A stretch of DNA of 64,000 bases from Halorubrum salipaludis (lineage in GTDB: Archaea; Halobacteriota; Halobacteria; Halobacteriales; Haloferacaceae). The position numbers and the translations under genes were made by a program. This document shows positions 6,739-62,020 of this stretch, piece by piece. Position 1 is the first letter of the stretch. Each line of letters opens with the position of its first letter. A model generated the notes under the pieces. That model worked only from the letters and a program-made list of their open reading frames with translations. It was not told the DNA's origin and ran no database searches. The stretch is taken from assembly GCF_002286985.1 (NCBI RefSeq), contig NZ_NSKC01000008.1:186001-250000 (forward strand). The letters run 5' to 3'.

Positions 6739-7189
6739 TTGATCGATAGCGGGAGTGAGTCCCGCAAATCGGTGGGGACGATACGGTATTTAAATAGCTG
6801 TGAGCGACAGGGATGATCGCTTATAAAGGACGCCGCGGTGGCGTGCGCCTCCGAGCGGGCCAAAGGTCCGCGAGGAGACCGCACGAGGGAGTCGGCGGCG
6901 ACCAACGGGAGCCGCCGACGAGGCTGGGGAGGCGTGAGGCTGCGGTTGCTGTGCGGGGTGGGGATCAAAGGGGCAGGCGTGAGGCGCCCAGAGGCGATGT
7001 AAGCACCGCAGGAACGAGTGGAACGAGTGACGAGGAGCGCAGCGAGTGTCTGGGCGCCTCACGCCTGGGGCTTTGCAGGTCTTCACCGCAACACCGTCGA
7101 TCACTTATAAACAGCCGACAGCAACACCACAACTCCACTTATAAACAACCGAACAGCCAATTTGCGAGACTCACTCCCGCAATCGCTCA
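6739..7189 (+). repeat. Structured multi-copy element, copy 1 (intact, terminal inverted repeats)
   Basis: Terminal inverted repeats: GCGGGAGTGAGTCCCGCAAA starting at 6749, and its near-exact reverse complement ending at 7180, with weaker similarity outward to about 6739 and 7189. Inside, in order: TTTAAA (6788-6793) and CTTATAAA (6820-6827); hairpin 1 (about 6848-6880); hairpin 2 (arms 6891-6899 and 6911-6919); a conserved box GAGGCTGGGGAGGCGTGAGG at 6920-6939; hairpin 3 (perfect 19-bp arms 6974-6992 and 7049-7067, closed by CAAAG-GGG and GGG-CTTTG); and two CTTATAAAC boxes near 7104 and 7138. It lies between the divergent sufS and the histidine kinase. Short open frames inside overlap the hairpins and are not conserved as proteins among copies. 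Confidence 0.85.
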
Positions 7190-16157: not shown

Positions 16158-16665
16158 TTGATCGACTGCGGGAGTGAGTGTCGCACGTTGGTGATCTGGT
16201 TGTTTATAAGTGGGATTGAGGTGTTGCTGTCGGCTGTTTATAAGTGATCGATGTGCCCGCGGTGAAGACCTGTAAAGTCCCAGCCGATCACTTATAAACG
16301 GTTAACTGGAGATCGGCGGCGAGGACCTGCAAAGCCCCAGGCGTGAGGCGCCCAGACACTCGCTGCGCTCCTCGTCACTCGTTCCACTCGTTCCTGCGGT
16401 GCTTACATCGTCTCTGGGCGCCTCACGCCTGCCCCTTTGAGCCCCACCCCGCACAGCAACCGCAGCCTCACGCCCCCCCAGCCTCGTCGGCGGCTCCCGT
16501 TGGTCGCCGCCGACTCCCTCGTGCGGTCTCCTCGCGGACCTTCGGCCCGCTCGGAGGCGCACGCCACCGCGGCGTCCTTTATAAGCGATCGTCGCCGCAG
16601 CTCACGTCTGTTTAAATACTCTATCACCACCGCCGATCTGCAACACTCACTCCCGCCATCACTCA
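16158..16665 (-). repeat. Structured multi-copy element, copy 2 (intact, extra tail unit)
   Basis: Same family as copy 1 in reverse orientation. Inverted repeats: GCGGGAGTGAGTGTCGCA from 16168, and its counterpart ending at 16656, with TTGATCGA-like outer extensions. Hairpin 3 arms (16338-16356 and 16413-16431) are the same sequence as copy 1; hairpin 2 arms are 16486-16494 and 16506-16514. Unlike copy 1, the segment with the CTGGGGCTTTG box and TTATAA is partly duplicated (around 16258-16335), which lengthens the element. It fills the gap between the convergent lipoprotein and ATPase genes. Confidence 0.85.
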
Positions 16666-29472: not shown

Positions 29473-29927
29473 TTGATCGAGTTCGGGAGTGGGTATTGCA
29501 GATCGGTAGCGGCGAGACGGTATTTAAACAGCCAAGAGCGACGACGATCGCTTATAAATGACGACGCGGTGGCGCGCGCCTCCGAACGGCCGCCACCGGT
29601 GGCCGTGAGGAGCGCGTGCGAGGGAGTCGCTGGCGCCTTATAAGGCGCCAGCGACGAGGCTGGGGAGGCGTGAGGCTGCGGTTGCGGTGTGGGTGGGACT
29701 CAAAGGGGCAGCCGCGAGGGGAGCTTAGGCGACGCTAAGCACCGCAGAGAGCGAGTGAAACGAGCGACCGAGGAGCGCAGCGAGCGTAAGCTCCCCTCGC
29801 GGCTGGGGCTTTGGAGGCCTTCACCGCGGGCACATCGATCACTTATAAACACCTGTCAGCAACACCCAAATCCAACTTATAAACAACCGAACAGCCAATT
29901 TGCGAGACTCACTCCCGAAGTCGATCA
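29473..29927 (+). repeat. Structured multi-copy element, copy 3 (intact)
   Basis: Inverted repeats TTGATCGAGTTCGGGAGTG (from 29473) and the matching end to 29927. TTTAAA (29523-29528) and CTTATAAA near 29551 precede hairpin 1 (about 29577-29612). Hairpin 2 is a perfect 30-nt palindrome (29626-29655) with TTATAA at its centre. Hairpin 3 arms are 29709-29727 and 29787-29805, perfect, and different in sequence from copies 1 and 2. The right end (29879-29917) is identical to copy 1 over about 40 bp. It occupies the convergent gap between the PfkB and lipoprotein genes. Confidence 0.85.
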
Positions 29928-34583: not shown

Positions 34584-35049
34584 GCGATCGATCTCGGGAG
34601 TGGGTGTTGCAGATCGGTGGTGGTGATAGGGTATTTAAACAGCCGTGAGCGACGGTCATGATATCTTATAAATAGCGGTGCAGTGGCGCGTGCCTCCGAG
34701 GCCGTTTCGCGGCCGAGGAGCACGCGCGAGGGAGTCGCTGGCGGCCGAGCGAAGCGAAGGCCGCCAGCGACGAGGCTGGGGAGGTGTGAGGCTGCGGTGC
34801 TGTAGCGGGCGGGTGGGACTCAAAGGGGCAGTCGCTGTGGGCGGCGCAGGCGACGCGAGCACCGCAGCGAAGGAGCGAAGCGACTGAGCGAGGAGCGCGG
34901 CGAGCGTGCGCCGCCCACAGCGGCTGGGGCTTTGCAGACCCTCATCGTAGCGTCGTCGATCGCTTATAAACATCCGCTAGCGACACGCCAATCCGGCTTA
35001 TAAACAATCTCTCCACCAACATGCGAGATTCACTCCCGAAACCGATCAA
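34584..35049 (+). repeat. Structured multi-copy element, copy 4 (intact)
   Basis: Ends: GATCGATCTCGGGAGTGGGT (34585-34604) and the inverted counterpart to 35049 (CACTCCCGAAACCGATCAA). TTTAAA near 34634 and CTTATAAA near 34666 precede hairpin 1 (GGCCG-TTTCG-CGGCC inside CTCC/GGAG). Hairpin 2 arms 34734-34746 and 34759-34771 are perfect 13-bp arms; hairpin 3 arms 34829-34848 and 34907-34926 pair throughout with one G-U. All three stems differ from copies 1-3. It lies between the convergent TrmB-like and mptA genes. Confidence 0.85.
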
Positions 35050-46106: not shown

Positions 46107-46475
46107 ACGGAGTGAGAGACCCGAATAGCTCCGAAATCCTGGCCGCTCGGTTATAAATCGCTGACTGTGGACCGGCAGTGAACACCTCCAAAGCCCCAGT
46201 CGCGACGACTCGCGTGACTCGCTGCGGTCCTCACTCACTCGCTGCGCTCGTTCCTTGCGTCGTCAAGCGTGTCCTCGCGACTGCCCCTTTGAGTCCCACC
46301 CCCGCAACCGCACAGCACCTCACGCCTCCCCAACCTCGCGGCTCCCTTCGGTCGCCGCGTCCCTCGCGCGTGCTCTCGCCGGCGGCGTCGCCGCCGGCTG
46401 TCAGAGAGACCGAAGGTCTCTCCCTACTCGCGGCCGCCTTCGGCGGCACGCTCACAGGCACGCGCCACCGCGTCG
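46107..46475 (-). repeat. Structured multi-copy element, copy 5 (degraded, truncated)
   Basis: Reverse orientation. The plus-strand left end (ACGGAGTGAGAGAC, from 46107) is a decayed terminal repeat; the other terminal repeat is missing, and the element stops about 12 bp before the nurA stop codon. Hairpin 3 is reduced to 9-bp arms (46197-46205 and 46275-46283) but keeps CAAAG/CTTTG (46189-46193, 46287-46291) and the GGG/GGG loop, shown as CCC on this strand. Hairpin 2 has 6-bp arms (46337-46342, 46354-46359). Lies in the convergent gap between CPBP and nurA. Confidence 0.75.
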
Positions 46476-61460: not shown

Positions 61461-62020
61461 CGGCGTTTATAAATAGGCGATCGATTCGCGGTGACGATTT
61501 TCAAAGCCCGGGCACTCGCTTATAAATAGTAACCAGCAGATCGCCAGCGAACACTGTCAAAGCCCCAGCCGCTCACTTATAAGGAGTTGCCAACAGATCG
61601 CCAGCGAACACTGTCAAAGCCCCAGCCGCGAGGGCGGCGTACGCTCGCTGCGCTCCTCGTCACTCGCGTTGCTCGTTCCTGCGGTGCTAGCGTCACCTAA
61701 GCCGCCCTCGCGGCTGCCCCTTTGAGTCCCACCCAACCGCAGACCGCCGGAAGACGGTCCTGCTCGCTCACTGCTCGCGGCTTCGCCGCTCGCCAGTCGA
61801 GGTGCCCGCTTCGCTCGCACCTCGCACCGTTCGCTGCGCGGGCTGCGACTTCCGTGCTCCCGCTCGCTCCCGTCGGTCGCTCGCGGGACCGCAGCCTCAC
61901 GCCTCCCCAGCTTCGTCGGTGGTCCTCCGCGTTGCTCCGGACCACCGACTCCCTCACGCGTGCTTCTCGGCCGCGGGGCGGCCTCGAAGGCACGCGCCAC
62001 CGCAGTTCATTTATAAACAA
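61461..62020 (-). repeat. Structured multi-copy element, copy 6 (expanded, terminal repeats lost)
   Basis: Reverse orientation. Hairpin 3 arms (61623-61638, 61701-61716) are perfect for 16 bp with CAAAG/CTTTG outside and GGG/GGG loops (CCC on this strand). Hairpin 2 arms are 61915-61925 and 61939-61949. The CTTTG-end module is amplified: a 36-bp segment is identical at 61537-61572 and 61594-61629, with a degenerate third unit around 61480-61515, each followed or preceded by TTATAA. Between hairpins 3 and 2 an additional 150 bp or so (about 61741-61890) has further short inverted repeats. No clear terminal inverted repeat remains. Confidence 0.75.

Follow-up and report, generated by a model that had tools for sequence, protein, structure and literature searches.

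A dispersed intergenic hairpin repeat of the Halobacteria keeps a GGG/GGG internal loop at the base of a variable stem

What holds two facing GGG triplets in place at the base of a hairpin whose stem is free to change? The question is raised by a 64,000-nucleotide stretch of the Halorubrum salipaludis genome (the window), in which the initial annotation had described six copies of a long hairpin resting on a common frame, CAAAG-GGG-CAG on one side and CTG-GGG-CTTTG on the other. The frame was recovered in six hairpins out of six, each with CAAAG/CTTTG, GGG/GGG and CAG/CTG and each with a paired upper stem whose sequence varies from copy to copy. The core of copy 1 spans 6956..7075 on the + strand and consists of GGGTGGGGAT followed by the CAAAG-GGG-CAG hairpin CTG-GGG-CTTTG, the latter being the part at 6966-7075 that had been noted earlier. 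Pattern matches and reading of the stems placed the other five cores at 16330..16449 (copy 2, - strand), 29691..29813 (copy 3, +), 34811..34934 (copy 4, +), 46189..46301 (copy 5, -) and 61615..61734 (copy 6, -), each between convergent called genes. The sequence CAAAGGGGCAG was matched six times in the window without a mismatch, against a shuffle mean of 0.23 at up to one mismatch, and CTGGGGCTTTG seven times (shuffle mean 0.30), the seventh match being an extra tandem 3' arm 57 nt past the arm of copy 6 (61558..61568, - strand). The claim that the frame is invariant thus stands for the window; beyond it, CAG/CTG is near-fixed in the Halorubrum lineage only, and elsewhere this position is occupied by, for example, CCG/CGG, CAC/GTG or CGG/CCG.

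Across the whole genome the exact two-sided pattern is present in 34 copies and the reversed pattern in none. Scoring of the loop against the stem genome-wide, as the initial annotation had proposed, was carried out with independent anchors. Anchor (a), the upstream GGGNGGGNNTSAAAG with both loops left free, identified 100 sites, of which 95 were read and 92 had a stem with at least 9 of 12 positions paired. Among these 92 stemmed sites the 5' triplet was GGG in 91 and GGA in one, and the 3' triplet was GGG in 90, GAG in one and CTC in one, the last in a poor hairpin. Anchor (b), the 5' arm without runs or loop, gave 66 matches; once eight opposite-strand 3' arms had been set aside, the 5' triplet was GGG at 57 of the remaining 58 sites. 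With anchor (c), the 3' arm plus downstream GGAGG, the 3' triplet was GGG at 63 of 66 sites, some of them tandem arms, AGG at two and GGC at one. Free variation of the loop triplets, which would have spoken against the constraint, was not observed with these anchors.

A structure-only scan of 955 kb, specifying outer SAAAG/CTTTS, any 3x3 loop and a ten-pair stem, returned 124 GGG/GGG hairpins (CCC/CCC on the other strand) versus one copy with GGG/CCC, 112 of the GGG/GGG loci having been fetched by a loop-containing pattern, so that the scan is of value mainly as a control. Ten control outer 5-mers, made by rearranging the same letters, gave 0-3 hairpins each in the 955 kb. The sole GGG/CCC copy, L140, is fully paired and was counted on both strands; its mismatch has turned into GGG/CCC, as palindrome repair would yield. 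Together with the stem survey and the ortholog comparison given below, the anchors provide good support for a loop that is constrained beside a stem that is free, and from this constraint we infer that the loop may act as a recognition site.

The conserved portion extends further than the hairpin base. Three bases upstream of SAAAG lies GGG-Y-GGG, which adds two invariant runs to those described in the initial annotation. When the hairpin alone served as anchor, G made up 96.0-98.4% at each of the six upstream positions in 126 hairpins, with exact spacing of the runs in 117; the base between the triplets varies freely (T 58%, C 35%, G 5%, A 2%). The class-wide core can accordingly be written GGGYGGG-AnT-SAAAG-GGG-C[hairpin]G-GGG-CTTTS, a sequence carrying four G-runs of three bases each. 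Outside Halorubrum S is G, giving GAAAG/CTTTC, such that the outer pair flips between C-G and G-C from lineage to lineage; the collected copies comprise 197 of the C-type and 117 of the G-type.

The run-plus-arm core was matched 127 times in the H. salipaludis genome at up to three mismatches (reversed control, 1). At up to two mismatches it is present in 262 of 391 Halobacteria genomes, a figure in which low per-genome counts include chance matches, reversed controls reaching up to 2. Genomes of the same genus hold from 0 to 193 copies, most of them tens. In a named collection of 113 loci, 110 are labelled Halorubrum and the rest are an uncultured archaeon, Halobellus and one chance match; L168, labelled Rhodobacteraceae, is a chance match that has no stem. 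Viral spread was considered and dropped, as the two matches in viral_contigs show no such hairpin, and a search of phage sequences for the core gave no match. An orientation bias had seemed apparent in the distant lineage G176 and in G383; it was withdrawn for G176, where the full list is 36 forward and 33 reverse, and the strand counts in G383 are 20 and 19.

Arms and cores also occur in multiples. A second 3' arm lies 54-72 nt downstream in 27 of 72 copies of the H. salipaludis genome; in G176, 11 of 24 copies have one at a distance of 53-57 nt. The reversed control was 0 in both cases. Four 3' arms follow one another at G000:C1:437452-437673. Head-to-head pairs of cores about 37-45 nt apart, which resemble REPIN doublets, were seen in G050, G384, G336, G332 and G294, genomes of other families; in G050 there are seven such pairs among 19 copies, about 40 nt apart.

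The freedom of the stem was examined in 173 distinct 12-bp stems, where most pair positions show two to four Watson-Crick types. Ortholog pairs numbered 29 (24 Halorubrum and five G-type; mean flank identity 88.8%), a set that is partly conditioned because many named loci were fetched by a loop-containing pattern and five of the six upstream G were required. Among the 24 Halorubrum pairs, 159 of 576 stem bases are different, and the stem pairs show 72 compensatory changes against 6 that are one-sided and 7 that break the pair. In the same 24, 1 of 144 upstream-run positions and 3 of 144 loop positions differ, a single copy accounting for all three loop differences, and the free base between the upstream triplets differs in 13. 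The five G-type pairs gave 8 compensatory, 1 one-sided and 0 broken changes. For an identity profile, 18 ortholog pairs were entered and 16 passed the flank filter; identity fell from 0.92 in the flanks to 0.78 in the hairpin and 0.67 immediately past it, the values for unrelated copies being 0.77 within the hairpin and 0.65 past it. The hairpins keep almost no memory of their locus. An exception is the pair L047/L052, Haloarcula-type plasmid copies in which the hairpin, at an identity of 0.96, matches its flanks in conservation. This turnover fits gene conversion between copies or palindrome repair. Either process would tend to remove the mismatch at the hairpin base, so that its survival, in a set partly conditioned on intact loops, would argue for selection.

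The strand on which the structure forms is indicated by the imperfect pairs. Interior non-Watson-Crick pairs in the 173 stems comprise 50 G.T, 11 A.C and 29 others, the excess of G.T over A.C having p = 4.6e-7 if sites are independent, which these counts are not. The excess has the same direction in both lineages (p 1e-5 and 0.015 at face value). This indicates that the G-rich strand is the folded and selected form, as RNA or single-stranded DNA, because a cruciform in duplex DNA would give no bias between G.T and A.C. The asymmetry names the strand and not RNA as such, since G.T is more stable than A.C in single-stranded DNA too. Compensatory changes and a G.U strand signature, which are the marks of a structured non-coding RNA, are both present. 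In RNA folding against shuffles the core gave z values of -0.58, -1.71 and -2.32 for three plasmid copies, unremarkable for some of them, and of -4.22, -5.87 and -3.98 for one other copy and two window copies. Judged from these sequence patterns, the active form would be the G-rich strand when single-stranded, most likely as RNA, or else as single-stranded DNA.

A non-canonical G-rich structure, one of two possibilities raised in the initial annotation, gains weight from the two further invariant runs and from the G.T excess, and is plausibly a G-quadruplex. The core has the tract pattern of SLQS sequences: a single strand carries four tracts of 3-6 G, and a long loop between tracts holds a stem-loop. 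A protein site on duplex DNA leaves the strand bias unexplained, and a plain hairpin the four invariant G-runs; a quadruplex clamped between two helices would be the most economical reading. Haloarchaeal cells have molar intracellular K+. We tentatively suggest, with the odds still against it, that this class-wide motif could be a natural three-tetrad G-quadruplex built into a duplex and kept in more than 100 copies per genome. Two of its strands would come from the GGG/GGG internal loop and two from the upstream GGGYGGG; molar K+ would favour the fold, and selection would block repair of the mismatch while the arms are overwritten. In the portions of PMC4477648 drawn on here, GGGNGGG is described as readily adopting a parallel arrangement through its one-base loop, and a stem-loop as able to join remote G-tracts; Haloferax volcanii (H. 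volcanii) is reported to form G-quadruplexes in the portion used of PMC12873603. Pairing of GGGYGGG with a downstream TTCRCCG was considered as well, with an odds ratio of 4.1 (p 6e-5) in Halorubrum. It was rejected, since the mutual information did not exceed that obtained with neighbouring upstream bases, and other families do not conserve the downstream motif.

Copy 1 lies within a larger unit. It is flanked by a 33-nt inverted repeat, 88% complementary, whose left arm is at 6740..6772 and right arm at 7157..7189 (both + strand). Twenty-four copies of the genome share a similar right end, and most of these a similar left end too; the flanking repeats were seen in Halorubrum only, whereas the core is class-wide. 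Two more hairpins 5' of the core, GCGTGCGCCTCC..GAGGAGACCGCAC and GTCGGCGGC..GCCGCCGAC (6838..6925, +), were read from the sequence and from other copies, among which their shape is alike and their sequence variable. Between stem 2 and the G-runs of copy 1, at 6920-6939, lies GAGGCTGGGGAGGCGTGAGG, a segment near-invariant in Halorubrum copies, a relative of which is present in other families (L031, L040, L051). Many copies at the G176 loci L296-L325 are immediately preceded, on the 5' side of the core, by tandem repeats about 26-29 nt long (CCACCGAGAATCGCCCGGTGACACA, for example). TATA-like boxes are situated 5' of copy 1 at 6789..6794 (TTTAAA, +) and 6820..6827 (CTTATAAA, +), and 3' of it at 7104..7111 (CTTATAAA again, +) and 7138-7145. 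Around Halorubrum copies such boxes fall at about -210 to -120 and +0 to +90, and around copies in other families they are nearly absent; being limited to Halorubrum, they indicate that a promoter of its own is no class feature of the element.

With genes called by a custom codon model, overlap with a called gene was seen for 0 of 83 copies in the H. salipaludis genome and for 1 of 287 over all sets examined. Convergent genes bracket five of the six window copies and 44 of the 76 classified copies of the genome. The picture is different in G176, where convergent genes bracket just 4 of 29 classified copies and 22 of the 29 are followed by a co-oriented gene. Since the arrangement of neighbouring genes varies between lineages, no one cis role would suit them all. 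At orthologous places the element is present in one species and absent from another in six comparisons (591-1133 bp versus 25-107 bp); copy 2 has no counterpart at the corresponding locus of Halorubrum sp. Atlit-26R (L070). The junctions at empty sites are not clean and no target duplication is readable. Among 30 loci of the Y1 transposase (PF01797) from 17 genomes none is flanked by copies, and a lone copy lies close to the far end of L327. The proposal of a CRISPR, omega-RNA or IS200/605 right end was rejected, none of these 30 Y1 transposase loci being flanked by copies; GTGGGAYTGAA may resemble a haloarchaeal CRISPR repeat.

On plasmids the element has a recurrent neighbour. At 11 of 16 annotated plasmid loci (L386-L394, L396, L397) it starts some 450-555 bp 5' of a divergently oriented gene for an OB-fold DNA-binding protein, an arrangement absent from the other five (L395, L398, L399, L400, L401). 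The OB assignment comes from weak Pfam OB matches in the six proteins scanned. When 30 OB-gene loci were chosen by protein, the motif was upstream in 12 and the full run pattern in 10. At the 11 linked loci a conserved region of several hundred bp separates gene and element and has strong inverted repeats of its own; it may represent an independent structured RNA of haloarchaeal plasmids, or a single-strand signal of theirs. MOB-suite assigned MPF_T to nine of the 11 OB-linked plasmids and to none of the other five, and rated all 16 non-mobilizable. The OB-fold protein was rejected as driver of the chromosomal copies, as its presence does not track copy number: G153, with 193 copies, has only a weak OB-family match of a size found in every genome. 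Beside chromosomal copies an OB match was weak at 1 of 90 loci of the H. salipaludis genome, and was seen at 0 of 113 named loci and 1 of 30 loci from lower-copy genomes.

Several explanations bear on these data. A transcribed non-coding RNA or UTR element, for example an insulator between convergent genes or a trans-acting RNP, has a reasonable but less than even chance of being right. The compensatory changes and G.T excess, the TATA-like boxes at -210 to -120 in Halorubrum, the preponderance of convergent spacers in the window and its genome, and the long conserved stretch between plasmid OB gene and hairpin are all as it would have them; the boxes do not cluster in other families, however, few G176 copies lie between convergent genes and most have a co-oriented gene downstream, no Rfam family matches, and convergent spacers may merely tolerate insertions. 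The element might alternatively be a non-autonomous, MITE-like transposable element, whose conserved ends and hairpin base would be transposase sites and whose structure would serve mobility only. We regard this as possible but doubtful: inverted repeats, similar right ends, presence and absence between species and the 127 copies accord with it, but the empty sites lack clean junctions and a readable target duplication, the repeats were seen in Halorubrum only and the core is class-wide, none of the 30 Y1 loci is flanked (the search covered the Y1 family), and a transposase acting on duplex DNA leaves the G.T/A.C asymmetry unexplained.

That the element is a plasmid single-strand signal (a transfer origin, single-strand promoter or priming site) which spread to chromosomes is unlikely. 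Linkage to the OB gene and the MPF_T typing speak for it; against it are the non-mobilizable rating of every plasmid, the independence of OB family and chromosomal copy number, and the near absence of the gene beside chromosomal copies. It is very unlikely that the element has no function and arises as a mutational side effect of palindrome repair and of gene conversion between repeats. Orthologous stems do look overwritten, and palindrome repair automatically makes paired changes, yet the same repair should erase the mismatch, and L140 is one GGG/CCC copy set against 124 with GGG/GGG. The loop-free anchors, moreover, agree on GGG at either end.

The explanation that we favour, by a modest measure of confidence, is a dispersed intergenic structured repeat, strand-specific and distributed across Halobacteria, which would work like REP elements. 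It builds on the observed anatomy, invariance, pair-wise compensation, strand asymmetry, and gain and loss between species. The G-rich strand would fold into a long hairpin when single-stranded. Its upper helix would need only helicity, so that both arms can turn over fast together, and the hairpin base would form a fixed knot composed of the SAAAG/CTTTS lower helix, the symmetric GGG/GGG loop and the GGGYGGG three bases upstream. Within this knot the four G-runs may stack as a three-tetrad quadruplex between the two helices, and the knot may be recognised by a protein or by the machinery of propagation. Copies would overwrite one another's hairpins by gene conversion or palindrome repair, with selection keeping GGG/GGG unrepaired.

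If the four G-runs fold together, the repeats would amount to a natural family of quadruplexes, conserved and represented by hundreds of aligned variants. They would bring a built-in genetic test (free stem, fixed runs) to genetically tractable archaea, and quadruplexes as specific signals in K+-rich cells would become testable. Even without a quadruplex, a class-wide, high-copy structured repeat marks a clear gap in haloarchaeal annotation, one that includes the plasmid link to an OB-fold gene and hairpins turning over faster than their flanks.

No description of the motif was found in the literature searched, most subscription journals lying outside its coverage. The element shares conserved helices with compensatory changes with the structured RNA classes of Rfam; in Rfam 15 no family reaches its gathering score, the best matches being E 2.5 (20.5 bits, threshold 100) and E 0.059 (22.7 bits, threshold 78, off the element). 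Like the PATEs, MITEs and SMRs of Haloquadratum (PMC3119063), it is a high-copy, non-coding haloarchaeal element with palindromic or inverted-repeat character; the portions of that source used here define those elements by termini, transposase relatives or insertion differences and mention no GGG/GGG core. With the SLQS quadruplex-duplex hybrids, as presented in part of PMC4477648, it has in common four three-G tracts, a one-base GGGNGGG loop and a stem-loop between two tracts. It differs from them in a stem-loop far above the 20-nt limit of that search, in a second helix clamping the other side, and in being a conserved repeat family with a predicted fold.

The closest likeness is to bacterial REP/BIME sequences, which in the sections of PMC2817692 drawn on here are likewise intergenic, exceed 100 copies per genome, and consist of an imperfect palindrome with a short conserved head, sometimes in inverted pairs. 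By the same partial account, the hairpin here is longer, at about 70 to more than 200 nt, with arms that are hypervariable yet paired, and its mismatch is at the stem base whereas that of REP is mid-stem. In place of the GT(A/G)G head that stands beside the palindrome in REP/RAYT systems there is GGGYGGGAnT, with a free base inside, and no Y1 transposase gene flanked by two inverted copies was seen at the 30 loci. Because the head differs and the Y1 transposase linkage was not found, the family falls outside the REP definition; by analogy, it nevertheless appears to work like REP elements, being a high-copy, intergenic, imperfect palindrome (127 copies, 0 of 83 overlapping a gene).
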